A stretch of DNA of 64,000 bases. Origin: Roseiflexus sp. RS-1. Lineage in GTDB: Bacteria > Chloroflexota > Chloroflexia > Chloroflexales > Roseiflexaceae. The position numbers and the translations under genes were made by a program. The notes under the pieces are model-generated. The model worked only from the letters and a program-made list of their open reading frames with translations. It was not told the origin of the DNA and did no database searches. The stretch spans positions 3,409,501 to 3,473,500 of the forward strand of contig NC_009523.1 of assembly GCF_000016665.1 (NCBI RefSeq), given 5' to 3'. Positions 35,363 to 42,809 of the stretch are shown one piece after another. Positions within the stretch are counted from its first letter, which is position 1. Every line of letters begins with the position of its first letter.

Positions 35363-36661
35363 TTGAACACGCACTGTCCATTCTGCGGCGCACCAGTTGG
35401 GATGCGTTCACGCTTCTGCTCGATGTGCGGGCAGTTGCTGCCGCCATCTTCCCTGCCTGCTGCATCTCCGCCGCCACCTATCGACAACTGGCCAGTCGAG
35501 GGTGCATTAGCCAATGGAAAGCGATTGCAGGTCACCGGCGATGCACTTGATCTGCGTGAGCTGATAAACGTGGTAGAATCGAGTGTGCGATGGTGGCAGC
35601 GCGGGTTGAAGAGCAGCGACGCGATGACTCGCGATCAGGCGGCGCACGCGATTGACGAGTTGTCGCACATTCTGCGCAGCCTTTCTCAGCAACTGGCGCA
35701 TGGACGTTCGACCATCCGCATCACGAGAAGACTGCCGGCGCTGCGCCGATTCGATATCGCCTGTCCATCGTGTGGCAGCGGTAATCGGGCTGGCGCACGT
35801 TTCTGCCAGCGTTGCGGCGCGCTACTCAACACAGCGCCAGGGTATGGAGCCGGGCACGTGCAATCACGCACACTTACATTCACATTTGCAGCGCGCACCG
35901 ACACTGGTCGCGTGCGCCACCAGAATCAGGATTCGGTGTATACCGGCGTGATCCCGCTACCCGACGGTCAACAGGCGTATCTCTGCCTGGTTGCGGACGG
36001 AATGGGCGGCGCAGCCGCCGGTGAGTACGCCAGTCGACTGGCAGCCGATGTCAGTCGCGCCTACCTGGAACAGGAATCCGCCAGTCATCCGCCTGCGACC
36101 GATGCAGCCTGGCAGGCATTGCTGCGCGATGCAGTGCGTGCCGCCAACCGCCAGATCTACAATGCCGCGCGCACTGATGCGGCGCGACGCGGGATGGGAA
36201 CGACGCTGACCATTGCGCTGCTGGTCGGTGATCGCCTGCATATTGCATCGGTTGGCGACTCGCGGGCATATTTGCTGAATACCGACGGCGTGACCGACGA
36301 TGGCGCTCCTTCTGCCCAGTTGACATCAGACCATAGCCTGGTGGCGCGGCTGGTGGATATCGGCCAGTTGACGCCGGAGCAGGCGCGGGTGCACCCGCAA
36401 CGGAATATCCTGTATCGCTCGATTGGCACCGATCCGTCGGTCGATGTTGATACACGCTCGGAAGCGCTCGAACCGGGTGACATCGTTCTGCTCTGCTCCG
36501 ATGGATTGGTCAACCATGTCAGCGATGAAGAGATCGCTCAGATCGCACTTGGCGAAACCGACCTGGATCGTGCGGTGATGCGTCTCGTCAGCCTGGCAAA
36601 TGAGCGCGGCGGACGCGACAATATCAGCGTCGTGATGGTGCGCGTCTCGGGTGAACGGTAA
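35363..36661 (+). CDS. PP2C-type protein phosphatase with two zinc ribbons
   Basis: A 432-residue protein starting at TTG 35363 with GGAGG five bases upstream. Zinc ribbon 1 is at residues 5-22 (CPFC...CSMC), a helical linker runs 60-130, zinc ribbon 2 is at about 132-155 (CPSC...CQRC), and a PP2C Ser/Thr phosphatase domain fills 180-430. All metal-site motifs are present: RHQNQDSV, VADGMGG (near 212), VGDSRAYL, CSDGLVNH and GGRDNISV, so it should be active. It would dephosphorylate substrates of the kinase two genes on. No membrane helix. It is first in a five-gene same-strand cluster. Confidence 0.92.
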   Translation: MNTHCPFCGAPVGMRSRFCSMCGQLLPPSSLPAASPPPPIDNWPVEGALANGKRLQVTGDALDLRELINVVESSVRWWQRGLKSSDAMTRDQAAHAIDELSHILRSLSQQLAHGRSTIRITRRLPALRRFDIACPSCGSGNRAGARFCQRCGALLNTAPGYGAGHVQSRTLTFTFAARTDTGRVRHQNQDSVYTGVIPLPDGQQAYLCLVADGMGGAAAGEYASRLAADVSRAYLEQESASHPPATDAAWQALLRDAVRAANRQIYNAARTDAARRGMGTTLTIALLVGDRLHIASVGDSRAYLLNTDGVTDDGAPSAQLTSDHSLVARLVDIGQLTPEQARVHPQRNILYRSIGTDPSVDVDTRSEALEPGDIVLLCSDGLVNHVSDEEIAQIALGETDLDRAVMRLVSLANERGGRDNISVVMVRVSGER

Positions 36662-36703
36662 ATGCGTATTGGTTCGGCTTCTGCGTGTGATGGTAACGTA
36701 ACC

Positions 36704-38497
36704 ATGCCTGTCATTTGCCAGTCGTGCGGCGCAGTCAACCGTGATAACGCGCGTTACTGTCTGCACTGCGCGCAACCGCTTGCACCCGCCCGCCCGTCAC
36801 CCGATGATCAGGCCTGGCTGACGGCGCGATTGCTCGCCGATCCGTCCGTTTCAGTCTCACCGCCAGCGGATATGCCCACCCCTGGCGTAACGCTATCTTC
36901 CGCGCACGTGTACGATGTTCCAGTCCTCGCCGCTCCGGTGCGCTTAGATGAGGAGTCTGCTATGAATGCGCCGCCTGTTGACCCGAAAACGCCGTCGTTG
37001 TTTGCAGGACGGTACGAAATCATCGCTGCGTCCGGCGAAACGGTCGAGGCGCTGGATCGCCAGCCCTGGCGACGCTGCTGGTCGTGCGATACAACCTTGA
37101 ATGAACCAGGCGAGGCATACTGCACCCAGTGCGGCGCCGCGCTCGACGGTCGTCGTTATCGTGGTCTGCTGACAGGCGCCACGCCTGCCGGGCTTGCACT
37201 CGTTCCGCAGGTGACCGATCCTGCTGCGCGCGCCTTCCTCCCGCCGATCTGGGATCAGGTCAGCGACGGTGATCAAACGCTGACCCTCACCCCGGATATC
37301 CCTTCGACGCCTCCTTCGCTGCCACTCAGCGAACTTCAGGCGCTCGTCATCGGACGGGATCTGGCGCGGTTGCTGACCCTTCTGCACGGTCAGGGGCTTG
37401 CGCTTGGCGCGCTCGAACCGGACGATCTCGACATCTCACCGGCGCACACTGTGCGGCTGCGTAATGCCCCTGGATTGCACCGGGCCGCAGAAGGCGATAC
37501 GACCACCGATCTGATCCACCTGGCAACATTGCTCGAAGCGCTGACGGCAACGCCGCGCACGACCAGGCGGCTCGATGAGGAAGACATCACCCTGGACGTA
37601 ATGCCAAACCTTGCCGATCTGCTGCGCGAAGTACGCACAGGGCGCCTGACCGATCCGGCAGAACTGGCGCAACGGTTTGATCTCCTCATTGCGTACCATA
37701 CCGCGCCTGCGCCGCTGCGCGTCCGGTTTGGCGCAGCCACCGACACTGGCATGGTGCGTGATCTGAACGAAGATAGTCTGCTGGCGCTCGATCTCCGCCT
37801 GATCCGCCGCAACCAACCGCGTACCTGGAGTCTGTTCATTGTCGCCGATGGGATGGGCGGTCACAGCGCAGGCGAGGTAGCCTCGGATCTGGCGTTGCGC
37901 GGCGCGCTGGAAGTGGTGCAACGCGAATACCTGATGCCAACCGTTGATACCGATGCGCATGATGAAGAGGAGAATCTCCGCGACGTCGTTCGCCGCGCCA
38001 TTCTCCAGGCAAATGAGTATGTGGTGCGCGAGGCGCGCAGCCGCGGGAACGACATGGGCACGACGATAACGATGGCGCTGGTCGCAGGTGATCGCGCAAT
38101 CATCGGAAACGTTGGCGACAGTCGAACGTACCTGATGCGGGAAGGAAAACTGCGGCGCGTCAGTCGCGACCACTCGCTGGTGCAGCGCCTGGTTGATCTC
38201 GGTCAGATTACGCCTGACGACGTGTACACGCATCCGCAGCGCAATGCAATCCTCCGATCACTGGGCGACAAACGCGACATTGAGGTTGATATCTTCGTCG
38301 AACGGTTGCGTCCAGGCGATGCCCTGCTACTGATGAGCGACGGTTTGTGGGAAATGGTGCGCGATGAGCGGATGGCAGAGATCATCGCTGCGCACCACGA
38401 TCCGCAGGCGGCGTGCAAGGCGTTAATCGACGCTGCGAATGCCGCCGGCGGCGATGATAACATTACCGTGATTCTGGTGCATGTAGAAGCATACTGA
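36704..38497 (+). CDS. PP2C phosphatase fused to zinc ribbons and a degenerate kinase-like region
   Basis: ATG 36704 (MPVICQSCGAV) is preferred because the sister proteins begin directly with a zinc ribbon; ATG 36662 is an alternative. Residues 4-22 form zinc ribbon 1. Around residues 100-350 is a kinase-like region that starts with GRYEII, is interrupted by a second ribbon (CWSC...CTQC), and continues with helices like a kinase C-lobe (GRDLARLLTLLHGQGLALGALEPDDLDISP). The HRD and DFG motifs are absent, so it is probably a pseudokinase. The last ~250 residues are PP2C with DGMGG, VGDSRTYL, MSDGLWEM and GGDDNIT intact. Next gene 8 bases away. Confidence 0.85.
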   Translation: MPVICQSCGAVNRDNARYCLHCAQPLAPARPSPDDQAWLTARLLADPSVSVSPPADMPTPGVTLSSAHVYDVPVLAAPVRLDEESAMNAPPVDPKTPSLFAGRYEIIAASGETVEALDRQPWRRCWSCDTTLNEPGEAYCTQCGAALDGRRYRGLLTGATPAGLALVPQVTDPAARAFLPPIWDQVSDGDQTLTLTPDIPSTPPSLPLSELQALVIGRDLARLLTLLHGQGLALGALEPDDLDISPAHTVRLRNAPGLHRAAEGDTTTDLIHLATLLEALTATPRTTRRLDEEDITLDVMPNLADLLREVRTGRLTDPAELAQRFDLLIAYHTAPAPLRVRFGAATDTGMVRDLNEDSLLALDLRLIRRNQPRTWSLFIVADGMGGHSAGEVASDLALRGALEVVQREYLMPTVDTDAHDEEENLRDVVRRAILQANEYVVREARSRGNDMGTTITMALVAGDRAIIGNVGDSRTYLMREGKLRRVSRDHSLVQRLVDLGQITPDDVYTHPQRNAILRSLGDKRDIEVDIFVERLRPGDALLLMSDGLWEMVRDERMAEIIAAHHDPQAACKALIDAANAAGGDDNITVILVHVEAY

Positions 38498-38505
38498 GTA
38501 TCATT

Positions 38506-39879
38506 ATGCGGTGTCCTGTCTGCAACGCATCCAACCCCGACGGCGCTCCGTTCTGTGCTGAATGTGGCGTGCGCCTGACCGATACCCTCACGTCGCCATC
38601 GGTTGCACCACCCACTGGCACGCCTTTGCAGCAAACCATTCTGCAGGGTCGTTATATTATCGAGGAAAAACTCGGGCAGGGCGGCATGGGCGCCGTCTAT
38701 CGCGCCCGTGATCTGCGGCTCAGCACGGTGAACTGGGCGATCAAAGAGATGAGCCAGGCACAGATCACCGGATCGCTGGAACTCCAGCAGGCGCGCGCGG
38801 CATTCCGGCATGAAGCCGAACTGCTTGCCGGTCTTTCGCATCCGGGGCTGCCCAAAGTCGTCGATCATTTCGAGCAGGATGGAAAAGCCTACCTGGTGAT
38901 GGAGTTCGTGCCGGGTTCATCGCTGCTTGCGCTGGCGCGCCGTGAGGGTTTGCCCTTCCCCCTGCCGCGCGTCCTCGATTGGGCAAAACAGATCTGCGAG
39001 GTGCTGGACTACCTGCACAGCCGACCATCGCCCATCATCTTTCGCGACTTGAAACCGGCAAATGTGATGCTCACGCCTGAAGGACGCATCAAACTGGTCG
39101 ATTTTGGCATTGCGCGCCTGTTCAAGCCCGGCAAAGAGCGCGACACGCAGGCGTTCGGTACGCTCGGCTACAGCGCACCGGAGCAGTATGGGCAGAGTCA
39201 GACCGATCCGCGATCCGATATCTATTCACTCGGCGTCCTGCTGCATCAACTGTTGACCGGCTACGACCCGACCAGCACCCCCTTCCGCCTGCCGCCAGCC
39301 AACCAGGTGAACCCATCGATCCCGCAGCATATCTCCGACGCCATCGCCCGGGCGGTCAACCCGGACCCTGACGCTCGTTTCTCCAACGTGCGGGCCTTCC
39401 GTGATGCGCTGCTCGGCGGGCAACCGGTGATCCTTCAGACACCGGTGACAGAGGCAGTGCAATCCAGAATGGCGATTCCAGAGGCGATCGGGCAAACGAT
39501 TCCAGTGTCTTCCCCAATTTCCGGTTCAGCCGCAGTGCAACCGCCAGCCGTCCCTTCGCCGACAACCGGCGTTGCGAATGTCGGGCGCTGGATCGGCATC
39601 GCCAGTGTGCTTATGATGGGACTGGCTACCGTGATTGTGGTCGCCGGCGCTGCAACCGAAGATTCCGATAGCGCGCTTACAGGTTTTGGCGTTCTGATGG
39701 CGTTCCTGCCATTTGCAACGGGACCGATTGCCTTCCTGCTCGGTTTGATCGCGTTGTTCTCCCCTGCGACAGCACAAACGCTCAAGGGGCGGCAACACGC
39801 AACAATTGCTGTCGCTACTGGACTGGCGACCGGCTTGCTCTGCTGCGTCATTTTCATCGTTGGAGGGGGAAGCAGCTAA
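38506..39879 (+). CDS. Ser/Thr protein kinase with N-terminal zinc ribbon and C-terminal membrane helices
   Basis: A 457-residue protein. Residues 3-20 form a zinc ribbon (CPVC...CAEC). The Hanks-type kinase domain (about 48-310) has GQGGMGAVY, the Lys in NWAIKEM (about 79), FRDLKPAN (about 179; Phe replaces His of HRD), VDFGIAR (about 200) and the APEQYGQ of the activation segment end. Residues 360-455 contain three membrane helices resembling the DUF4190 small membrane domain. Thus the kinase is membrane-bound and opposed by two PP2C phosphatases. Substrates are likely to include the FHA and VWA proteins of the cluster. Confidence 0.93.
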   Translation: MRCPVCNASNPDGAPFCAECGVRLTDTLTSPSVAPPTGTPLQQTILQGRYIIEEKLGQGGMGAVYRARDLRLSTVNWAIKEMSQAQITGSLELQQARAAFRHEAELLAGLSHPGLPKVVDHFEQDGKAYLVMEFVPGSSLLALARREGLPFPLPRVLDWAKQICEVLDYLHSRPSPIIFRDLKPANVMLTPEGRIKLVDFGIARLFKPGKERDTQAFGTLGYSAPEQYGQSQTDPRSDIYSLGVLLHQLLTGYDPTSTPFRLPPANQVNPSIPQHISDAIARAVNPDPDARFSNVRAFRDALLGGQPVILQTPVTEAVQSRMAIPEAIGQTIPVSSPISGSAAVQPPAVPSPTTGVANVGRWIGIASVLMMGLATVIVVAGAATEDSDSALTGFGVLMAFLPFATGPIAFLLGLIALFSPATAQTLKGRQHATIAVATGLATGLLCCVIFIVGGGSS

Positions 39880-39963: not shown

Positions 39964-41202
39964 ATGAATACCGGCATAACGCTTACGTGCACCTGGGGAC
40001 GCGCACCGCTGGTTGCCAGCAAGGTTCCACAGGTCGCCTATCTGCTTATCGAAGCGCAGGCTGCGGCAATTGCCGAGAAAATGCCGCTCAATTTCTGCCT
40101 GGTGCTCGACCGCTCCGGGTCGATGCAGGGCGCCAAACTTGCGGCGCTGAAGGATGCCGTCAAACGGGTGATCGAAACCCTGACCCCGCAGGACATTGTT
40201 GCGATTGTGCTGTTCGACGACACCGTGCAAACGCTGGTTCCTGCGACGTTTGCCACCGACAAAGCGACGCTGATTGCACAGGTCGATGCCATCGAAGAAG
40301 CTGGCGGCACGGCGATGTCGGGCGGGATGGCGGCGGGTATTGTGGAACTGCGCAAGAACCATGACCCCGGACGTGTCGGGGCGATGCTGCTGCTGACCGA
40401 CGGGCAGACATGGGGTGATGAGGATCGTTGCCGCGCACTCGCCCAGGAACTCGCCCGTGATGGGGTGCGGATCACGGCCCTGGGTCTCGGCGCTGAATGG
40501 AACGAAGCGTTGCTCGACGATATTGCCGAAGCGACCGGCGGCATTTCAGACTACATCGCCGATCCGGCGCAGATCACGACGTTCTTCCAGCATGCAGTCC
40601 GCACAGCACAGGGAACGGTTGCCCGCGACGCACGTCTGTTGTTGCGTCTGGTGCGTGACGCAACGCCGCGCGCGGTTTATCGCGCCAGTCCTGTGATCGC
40701 CAATCTTGGCTACCAGCCAATCGGCGACAGTGAGATTGCCGTGCGGCTCGGCGCCATCGAGGCGGAGACACCGTCGAGCATCGTTGTCGATCTGATGGTT
40801 CCGGCGCGCGACGCGGGGAGTTTTCGCATCGCCCAGGCGGAACTTCACTACACGCCGGTTGGCGGCGCAGAACAGGTCGTCAAACAGGACCTGCTGCTCG
40901 AGTTCGTGACCGACCCGACTGCGTCGGCGTATGATCCGCGTGTGATGAATCTGGTCGAAAAGGTGACGGCGTTCAAATTGCAAACACGCGCGCTGGCTGA
41001 AGCAGAAGCCGGCAACCTGTCGGGCGCGACGCAAAAACTGCGCGCGGCTGCGACACGGTTGCTCGATCTTGGAGAACTTGAACTGGCGCAGAAAGTCTCC
41101 GAGCAGGCGGCGCATCTCGAACAGGGGCAGGCGATCAGCGCCGAAAATCAGAAAGAACTGCGCTATGCAACCCGTCGCCTGACGCAAAAACTCGAGGAAT
41201 AG
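39964..41202 (+). CDS. VWA-domain protein
   Basis: A 412-residue protein with a von Willebrand A domain at about 40-220. The MIDAS metal site is complete: DRSGS (D49, S51, S53), the Thr in GGTAMSG and the Asp in LTDGQTWGD. C-terminal half is beta-rich (about 225-330), then an all-helical tail (ATQKLRAAATRLLDLGELELAQK) . No signal peptide or zinc ribbon. VWA domains bind proteins in a metal- and sometimes phospho-dependent way; together with a kinase and PP2C this recalls the TerY-type VWA/PP2C/kinase triads. A strong GGAGAGGGAG ribosome site precedes ATG 39964. Confidence 0.88.
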   Translation: MNTGITLTCTWGRAPLVASKVPQVAYLLIEAQAAAIAEKMPLNFCLVLDRSGSMQGAKLAALKDAVKRVIETLTPQDIVAIVLFDDTVQTLVPATFATDKATLIAQVDAIEEAGGTAMSGGMAAGIVELRKNHDPGRVGAMLLLTDGQTWGDEDRCRALAQELARDGVRITALGLGAEWNEALLDDIAEATGGISDYIADPAQITTFFQHAVRTAQGTVARDARLLLRLVRDATPRAVYRASPVIANLGYQPIGDSEIAVRLGAIEAETPSSIVVDLMVPARDAGSFRIAQAELHYTPVGGAEQVVKQDLLLEFVTDPTASAYDPRVMNLVEKVTAFKLQTRALAEAEAGNLSGATQKLRAAATRLLDLGELELAQKVSEQAAHLEQGQAISAENQKELRYATRRLTQKLEE

Positions 41203-41228: not shown

Positions 41229-42809
41229 ATGATAACGTGTCCAACGTGCGGCGCTCTCAACGACCCGGTCAATCGTTTCTGTGACCAGTGTGGATCGCGG
41301 CTCGAACCGAGTGGTCCGATTCCGCAGGCATCAGCGCCCACGTTTCAGGCGCCACCCGTAGCGACAGCCCAGACCTGTCCCAACTGCGGTGCAACCGTCT
41401 TCCCCGGACAGGCGTTTTGTGAAGAGTGCGGCGCAGCCCTGACCGCAGTGGCGCCTCCTGCGGCAGCGGCGCCTCCTGTAGCAGCGCCGGTCAGTGTGGA
41501 TGCACCAACCATGATCGCGCCTGCGTCGATGCCGGTTGCGGGTTCGATCTGCCCATCCTGCGGTCATCAAACCATGCCGGGCGACCGGTTCTGTGATGCG
41601 TGCGGCGCAACGCTCGCACCGGCGCCATCAGTGGCAATCGCCGATGCACCGACCGCTGCGGCGCCTGAACCGCCGTGGTCGGTTCCTGCGCCCCCGCCTG
41701 CCGAGCCACCTGCGCCGCCGCCAACGCTGATCGAAGCAGCGCCCGCACCGATTCCACCCGCGCCGTCGGTCGAAGCAGCCCCTGCGCCGGTTCCACCTGC
41801 GCCGCCGGTCGAAGTGGCAGCGCCATCGCCTGCCCCCGCCGATGCGCAGGCGGAGTATGAAGCCAGACGCCAGGCGTTGCTCGACGAGATCGCAAAGCAG
41901 CAGAAGATTATCGAGCAATTGGAGCAGTTGCAGGCGACCTTCGGCGCTGCGACGCCCCACGCCGTCACCATTGCCCTGGCGGAAGCGCGTGAGGCGCTCG
42001 CCAGAGCGCAGACGGAACTCGACGCTCTGCAACCACCGCCGCCGCCCGTCGATCCGGCGGTCGTTGCGGCGCTCAACGATGAAATCGCAAAGCAGCAGAA
42101 GATTATCGAGCAACTGGAGCAGTTGCAGGCGACCTTCGGCGCTGCGACGCCCCACGCCGTCACGCTTGCCCTGGCGGAAGCGCGTGAGGCGCTCGCCAAA
42201 GCCGAAGCGGAACTGGCAGCGCTTGGCGTTTCACCTGCTGCTGCACCGGCGCCATCCGCTGCACCATCTGCGCCGGTTGCACCGCCTCCACCGGTTGCAC
42301 CGCCACCTCCGACGCCCATTGCGCCGCCTGCGCCAGCAGCAATGGAGATCGCCGCCCCGCCACCGTTCACCGCAGAACCGGTCGCTCCGCCGCCGGTTGC
42401 TCCCGCCGCCACACCCGATACGGCTGCAACGGTGACCTCGCCTCCGGCTGATTTTCTACCAGGCGCGACAATGCATATCCCTCCAGCCGGACCACGCCTC
42501 GTTTTCGATAACGGGGTAGGCGAAATTCCGGTTCCCATGGACAGACCGGAGATCACCATCGGGCGGGAAGACCCGATCAGCGGCATCCACCCGGAGATCG
42601 ACCTGACTCCGTTTGGCGGCGAGAGCGGCGGCGTAAGCCGTCAGCACGCGCGGCTGATCAGAAGCGGCGAACAGTGGTCCATTGTTGATCTCGGCAGCAC
42701 GAACTATACGCGGGTCGATGGCGTGCGGATCGAGCCGGGGGCGCCGCATCCGCTGAAAGATGGCGCACGCCTCCAGTTCGGACGCCTGACGGTGACGTTC
42801 AGGTTGTGA
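41229..42809 (+). CDS. FHA-domain protein with three zinc ribbons and duplicated coiled-coil
   Basis: A 526-residue protein. Three zinc ribbons occupy residues 4-22, 54-75 and 105-125. A Pro/Ala-rich region follows, then two copies of a ~48-residue helix pair (about 217-263 and 277-325) that share the string KQQKIIEQLEQLQATFGAAT, another Pro-rich linker, and an FHA domain at about 437-525 with IGRE, SRQHARL and DLGSTN, the motifs that bind phosphothreonine. It is expected to be the phospho-reader of the cluster, recruited by the kinase. The near-identical DNA of the helix repeats suggests recent duplication. Confidence 0.92.
   Translation: MITCPTCGALNDPVNRFCDQCGSRLEPSGPIPQASAPTFQAPPVATAQTCPNCGATVFPGQAFCEECGAALTAVAPPAAAAPPVAAPVSVDAPTMIAPASMPVAGSICPSCGHQTMPGDRFCDACGATLAPAPSVAIADAPTAAAPEPPWSVPAPPPAEPPAPPPTLIEAAPAPIPPAPSVEAAPAPVPPAPPVEVAAPSPAPADAQAEYEARRQALLDEIAKQQKIIEQLEQLQATFGAATPHAVTIALAEAREALARAQTELDALQPPPPPVDPAVVAALNDEIAKQQKIIEQLEQLQATFGAATPHAVTLALAEAREALAKAEAELAALGVSPAAAPAPSAAPSAPVAPPPPVAPPPPTPIAPPAPAAMEIAAPPPFTAEPVAPPPVAPAATPDTAATVTSPPADFLPGATMHIPPAGPRLVFDNGVGEIPVPMDRPEITIGREDPISGIHPEIDLTPFGGESGGVSRQHARLIRSGEQWSIVDLGSTNYTRVDGVRIEPGAPHPLKDGARLQFGRLTVTFRL

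Follow-up and report, generated by a model that had tools for sequence, protein, structure and literature searches.

Bacterial kinase-PP2C fusions, as described in the accessible part of PMC1262709, carry the PP2C domain N-terminal to the kinase domain; both domains lie in one chain, as in the protein considered here, but in the reverse order. The Acinetobacter plasmid 'bifunctional protein-serine/threonine kinase/phosphatase' likewise has PP2C N-terminal to the kinase, with no inserted ribbon. Pseudokinase domains and a phosphatase share one chain in the trypanosomatid 'kinatases', which differ in being eukaryotic and in carrying a dual-specificity phosphatase and leucine-rich repeats, a ribbon being unmentioned in the available portion of that source (PMC2175518). 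In actinobacteria, the GAP1-N2 systems show a gene theme of zinc-ribbon kinase, PP2C and vWA in which the kinase is active; the placing of a zinc-ribbon kinase beside PP2C and VWA genes is shared with the present locus, but no pseudokinase-PP2C fusion is described in the accessible text (PMC7159879). No GTPase is found by Pfam among the five operon genes studied here. The accessible part of PMC12599244 mentions neither PP2C, zinc nor Chloroflex, and no description of a ribbon pseudokinase-PP2C fusion was found in the open-access literature.

The NCBIfam model NF011149 / PRK14559, 'serine/threonine phosphatase' (642 positions, cut-off 374 bits), represents what is presumably a cyanobacterial family, and its PP2C is C-terminal like that of the protein described below. 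Seven of nine relatives of that protein align to PRK14559 continuously from model position 256-308 onward, running from the kinase-like C-lobe into PP2C, which hints at a comparable layout in this family, whose function is only vaguely defined; weak partial matches at its first ~55 positions are taken to be zinc ribbons. The cut-off of 374 is reached neither by the nine relatives (best 149.7) nor by the Roseiflexus protein itself (117.2), and it is exceeded in 0 of 61 Chloroflexota genomes and in 1 of 14 control genomes.

The window, meaning the whole 64,000-nucleotide stretch of Roseiflexus sp. RS-1 DNA that was analysed, comes from a genome of a single contig (5,801,598 bases); its features are collected in Table 1. 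In the 611-aa protein at its centre, Pfam recognizes a ribbon at residues 19-40, weak zinc-ribbon matches at ~133-165 and PP2C behind ~355. The first-pass annotation had, in its heading, set the kinase-like region inside the phosphatase; the region instead precedes it. A live phosphatase joined to a dead kinase would be the plain reading. The PP2C domain scores 241.5 bits against a cut-off of 230 for NCBIfam NF033484 (Stp1_PP2C_phos), and is therefore of the Stp1 type. The ATG at 36662 may precede the true start, M15 (36704, MPVICQSCG), by 14 codons, since two of four aligned relatives begin at M15 or two residues before it.

Of the 158 genomes in the class, 78 have a match to residues 112-353, and almost all of these belong to a single order, which we take to be the Chloroflexales; a Roseiflexus MAG supplies one relative, at 91% identity. 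A plasmid search with these residues alone gave no match. The family of 68 relatives was drawn from the fetched loci by taking ORFs of 400 residues or more, with shorter fragments and second copies of the same locus excluded, and its alignment (A1, 68 rows) covers residues 112-354 at identities down to 26%. The PP2C motif residues sampled are present in 66-68 of these 68, save the variable positions 467 and 598, and each cysteine of the N-terminal ribbon is found in 45, with gaps in 22, of the family alignment.

Table 1. Features of the locus, by position in the window (A3, alignment of the ribbon-lobe module)
Feature	Positions	Strand	Basis
Upstream neighbour: two zinc ribbons + PP2C (second phosphatase)	35363..36661	+	Pfam; conserved order
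Zinc ribbon - predicted pseudokinase - PP2C protein, 611 aa	36662..38497	+	ORF list, translation
N-terminal zinc ribbon, residues 19-40	36716..36781	+	Pfam Zn_Ribbon_1 1.1e-8
β1-β2-like strands FAGRYEII...EALDR, residues 114-133, without glycine loop	37001..37060	+	Weak alone; relatives' N-lobe, A3
GRYEII, residues 116-121	37007-37024	+	Translation
Inserted (predicted) zinc ribbon CWSC...CTQCGA, residues 135-162, β2-β3 loop	37064..37147	+	Cys counts, A3
Ribbon cysteines C139-x2-C142 ... C154-x2-C157	37076-37132	+	Translation
β3-like strand RYRGLLT, residues 164-170, catalytic Lys absent	37151..37171	+	A3, column counts
β4-β5-like segment FLPPIWDQVSDGDQTLTLTP, residues 192-211	37235..37294	+	HHalign to kinase profile
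αE-like helix, residues 222-243	37325..37390	+	HHalign; hmmsearch of PDB sequences
Degenerate catalytic loop GLALGALEPDDL (HRD to LGA), residues 245-256	37394..37429	+	HHalign, residue counts
LGALEPDDL, residues 248-256	37403-37429	+	Translation
Degenerate DFG stretch RLRNAPG, residues 265-271	37454-37474	+	HHalign, residue counts
αF-like helix DLIHLATLLEALTAT, residues 283-297	37508..37552	+	HHalign; Asp283 in 58/68
PP2C phosphatase domain, residues 355-609, metal-binding motifs intact	37724..38488	+	Pfam PP2C 9.1e-20
Downstream neighbour: zinc ribbon + protein kinase with Lys, RD, DFG residues	38506..39879	+	Pfam Pkinase 5.1e-45
VWA protein	39964..41202	+	Pfam VWA 4.5e-20
Three zinc ribbons + FHA (phosphothreonine-binding) protein	41229..42809	+	Pfam

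Kinase descent and loss of the active site

Taken alone, the 611-aa protein matches none of the kinase models of Pfam at E<=1, and a PDB sequence search with it returns no kinase; the rows that do appear there (GST kappa, FADD, E 0.34-1.4) are noise. Comparison of profiles gives a different kind of evidence. With the ribbon columns removed, A1 aligns to a kinase profile of 29 rows, collected from kinase loci at 27 places in the same genome, with an HHalign probability of 97.0% (E 8.5e-11, score 75.4, 106 columns), and the match spans β4 to αF only. Control scores are 14.2 for the reversed kinase profile and at most 17.6 for 40 column-shuffled profiles; the unrelated PP2C and VWA profiles reach 21.0 and 14.9, and the FHA and Lon control profiles produced no alignment. 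When the 13 most distant rows are left out the match holds at 95.0% (E 4e-8, 55 rows left), and those 13 rows alone give 98.2% (E 6e-14); the nine Roseiflexus-like rows alone give a weak 73% (E 3e-5).

Evidence independent of the own-genome kinase profile comes from an A1-based HMM search of the PDB sequences, in which the pseudokinases ROP5C (7e-4), VRK3 (1.3e-3) and ROP5B (3e-3) rank at the top. Among the best 60 of 219 matches, 52 are kinase-fold by name and the other 8 are of zinc-ribbon type or unclear. The Pfam models Pkinase and PK_Tyr_Ser-Thr each match 7 of the 68 members at E<=1 (best 1.8e-4), and in a small ORF set direct kinase-HMM matches occur in 17 family ORFs, two of which represent one gene, with a best E of 2.2e-6. 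At the level of sequence, these comparisons show region ~112-353 to be kinase-derived from β4 to αF. The first-pass annotation had proposed a pseudokinase before the phosphatase and a profile search of residues ~100-350 against kinases; that search is clearly positive, and together with the loss of catalytic residues described below it bears the proposal out. The C-lobe that was said to resume after the ribbon is indeed present, but in truncated form, from β4 to αF only.

AlphaFold models, one of the whole protein and one of residues 109-353, have mean pLDDT values of 52 and 47, probably owing to the few sequences supplied (five only), and are given no weight in the conclusions. In the low-confidence model of residues 109-353, strands are placed at 118-124, 127-132, 164-169, 199-202 and 205-211 and long helices at 222-243 and 280-295, an order of elements that fits a kinase, yet residues 260-267 form a helix in a place where kinases have strands. 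Foldseek returned no match at E<=0.001, with kinases first among the non-significant matches.

The three residues expected of an active Ser/Thr kinase, namely the VAIK Lys, HRD Asp and DFG Asp, appear as Leu, Ala and Asn in the 611-aa protein, in which the stretch from DFG to αF is also shortened. HHalign pairs LGAL with HRDV/L and RNAP with DFGI. Among the 68 relatives, the HRD His has given way to Leu in 66 and the Arg to Gly in 67, the HRD Asp position is occupied by 11 different residues and by Asp in 7, the Asn position of HRDxxxxN has Asn in 6 and Asp in 51, and the DFG positions keep Asp in 23 and Gly in 3. At the β3 position, Lys is found in none of 31 aligned rows. The earlier proposal that HRD has become LGALEPDDL and that DFG is lost is upheld by both the pairing and the counts. 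Kinase descent combined with the loss of catalytic residues indicates a predicted pseudokinase rather than an active Ser/Thr kinase. Even in relatives with only 26-30% identity, Leu241, Leu266, the Leu-Gly pair and the ribbon cysteines hardly vary.

The inserted ribbon and its fusion to PP2C

The four cysteines of the inserted ribbon are present in 67, 67, 68 and 68 of the 68 relatives, the sole pair of gaps belonging to L076, a frame that begins at its contig end. The ribbon-lobe module was aligned in 31 rows (A3, with a profile of 65 positions), and the four cysteines and the following Gly-Ala are invariant in all 31. Pfam DZR matches 59 of the 68 members at E<=1, many of them weakly. Over 400 Chloroflexota genomes, at least 82 have one near-full match each to the A3 profile (at least 54 of 65 positions, E <= 4.3e-9; counted by hand among the matches listed), and no relative was found in viral contigs.

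In the Chloroflexota families f30, f49, f46, f37, f60 and f23 the ribbon module is followed by PP2C with no detectable kinase C-lobe. The N-lobe of these lobe-only relatives is the better preserved, running from GRYEV... through VYxVxD, the ribbon and YxLHEY to a hairpin-like stretch. Once the ribbon is excised, the alignment of 15 such rows (L152 and L154 having been removed as ragged) to the kinase N-lobe has a probability of 92.6% (E 4.5e-7, score 38.8; shuffles at most 16.9). The Chloroflexales N-lobe rows alone give 14.9% over 20 columns, and all N-lobe rows pooled give 22.7%. The earlier suggestion that a ribbon splits the kinase N-lobe is thus sustained through the lobe of the relatives, but the N-lobe of the protein's own subfamily is weak (15-23%). 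The placing of the ribbon in the β2-β3 loop follows from the match of the lobe-only relatives together with A3; a conserved ribbon at this predicted loop is shown by these alignments, and zinc binding is predicted. No live kinase with the same inserted ribbon was seen: none of the 115 module ORFs has a kinase match above 25 bits, so no active parent was found in the 400 Chloroflexota genomes, among the matches listed.

The module is fused near-exclusively to PP2C. The fetched loci, which were mostly fetched for the module and not for PP2C, hold 115 distinct ORFs with the module (called at 45 or more of 65 columns and above 30 bits), and 112 of them also contain PP2C. L013 and L025 among the remaining three are cut by contig ends, and in L187 the PP2C lies in the next, overlapping ORF. 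In a PP2C tree of 66 chosen rows, the module-bearing PP2Cs fall in one 50-row fork (support 93/88), which also includes five second PP2Cs of family f23. Within this fork the C-lobe may have been lost or gained, in either direction.

At L187:797-2799, the module (405 aa) and PP2C (266 aa) occupy two overlapping frames, a natural split or a sequencing frameshift.

Gene neighbourhood and possible role

The order PP2C, module gene, kinase, VWA and FHA is repeated, with variations, in those Chloroflexales loci that are long enough; the survey covers 62 loci, many of them shortened by contig ends or chosen borders. Loci of families f3 and f4 contain VWA genes, and BLAST with the kinase at 38506-39879 found no kinase gene in them, so that docking to a kinase encoded next door may not apply throughout. 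In genus g9, several f1 loci have FHA only. In f30 and f49 loci, VWA and FHA are often seen downstream; a kinase lies upstream where the stretch reaches that far. Linkage to VWA is conserved, and in many families linkage to a kinase and FHA is conserved as well.

The second PP2C at 35363-36661 has a short region in place of the pseudokinase, and its relatives fall outside the module fork of the PP2C tree. The FHA protein carries a coiled-coil-like stretch, KQQKIIEQLEQLQATFGAATPHAVT, twice, between its ribbons and FHA.

It is fairly probable that an active PP2C phosphatase here uses the decayed, non-catalytic kinase domain as its regulatory or docking half. The ribbon would bind zinc and staple the β-sheet that once held ATP, the module would bind the operon's live kinase or its FHA/VWA partners, perhaps as a clamp, or else mimic that kinase as a lookalike, and the phosphatase would in this way act on the live kinase or on partners in their phosphorylated form. 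Within the module, the first lobe with its ribbon may matter most, as other Chloroflexota families keep it without the C-lobe. A more specific reading is offered tentatively, at somewhat under even chances for all its parts jointly: that the protein represents an apparently undescribed kind of PP2C regulator, a kinase N-lobe with a ribbon for its β2-β3 loop that is organised by metal and not by ATP, recognises the opposing kinase or its targets, is kept by the phosphatase even without the rest of the kinase, and belongs to a VWA-FHA-kinase-phosphatase operon.

The main rival would assign the region a sensor role, in which a zinc-stapled pseudokinase gates PP2C allosterically through a ligand, zinc or redox state, with no docking of a kinase. 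Its position directly before PP2C is consistent with this, CxxC-CxxC being a plausible metal or redox switch, and so are the presence of the ribbon in families without the C-lobe and the persistence of VWA or FHA partners where BLAST found no kinase. However, ligand binding is without support, and the neighbouring proteins are also rich in zinc ribbons, which makes a special sensing role unnecessary; allosteric sensing of this kind is regarded as rather unlikely.

Decay without any role is a further consideration, as the kinase half of a kinase-PP2C fusion could persist as an evolutionary leftover or spacer. Many sites in the motifs of the C-lobe are free to vary, among them the HRD Asp position with its 11 residues, and several families have no C-lobe, as such a history would predict; drift would nevertheless not be expected to keep the ribbon cysteines, the Leu-Gly pair, Leu241 and Leu266 near-invariant, and this account seems very improbable. 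Still harder to credit is that the region is no kinase at all but an unrelated helical linker with a zinc ribbon, its likeness coincidental. The single protein without a kinase match and the poor models would agree with such a coincidence, but the profile-profile E of 8.5e-11 with its clean controls, the direct kinase-HMM matches in 17 family ORFs and the colinearity of all motifs argue strongly against it. The regulatory or docking half of a phosphatase is the preferred reading. Bacterial Ser/Thr phosphatases have few known ways to choose their substrates, and a dead kinase domain that is part of the phosphatase and has its gene beside that of a live kinase would be a testable one.

Relatives with and without the ribbon

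Three Nostocales plasmids (L203-L205), among the best 60 of 262 plasmid records, encode a pseudokinase before PP2C, as in the 611-aa protein, but without a ribbon and with a longer C-lobe. These genes adjoin a kinase in all three cases and VWA and FHA in two. Their pseudokinase part matches kinases at 94.9% (E 4.4e-8, score 59.9, 151 aligned columns; shuffles at most 21.2), and Pfam Pkinase matches one of the three proteins (0.0014). Compared with A1 directly, the Nostocales pseudokinase profile gives no match (0.15%); a shared origin of the two pseudokinases is therefore not supported by profile. Pseudokinase-PP2C proteins without the ribbon are also present in two genomes of family f49, G296 (L196) and G409 (L157).

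A graded series is seen across these relatives, with a longer pseudokinase in cyanobacteria, a shortened one with a ribbon in Chloroflexales, and the first lobe only in other Chloroflexota; the impression is of a kinase domain cut back to a scaffold that metal holds together. Surveys relying on models of the whole kinase domain would overlook most such modules, given that just 7 of the 68 members match a given Pfam kinase model at E<=1.

Some details of the catalytic loops in these proteins can be added. The Nostocales proteins (L203:1-6840, L204:1-6840 and L205:637-4641) have WCFISLE-type loops in place of HRD and are annotated only as phosphatases. At L196:2618-4792 (+), and also in L157, the pseudokinase has HGNV in place of HRDL. 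The kinase-like protein at L156:1714-3843 (G044), which was matched by the A1 profile, has an HGD catalytic loop and LLGG for DFG and is apparently another pseudokinase.
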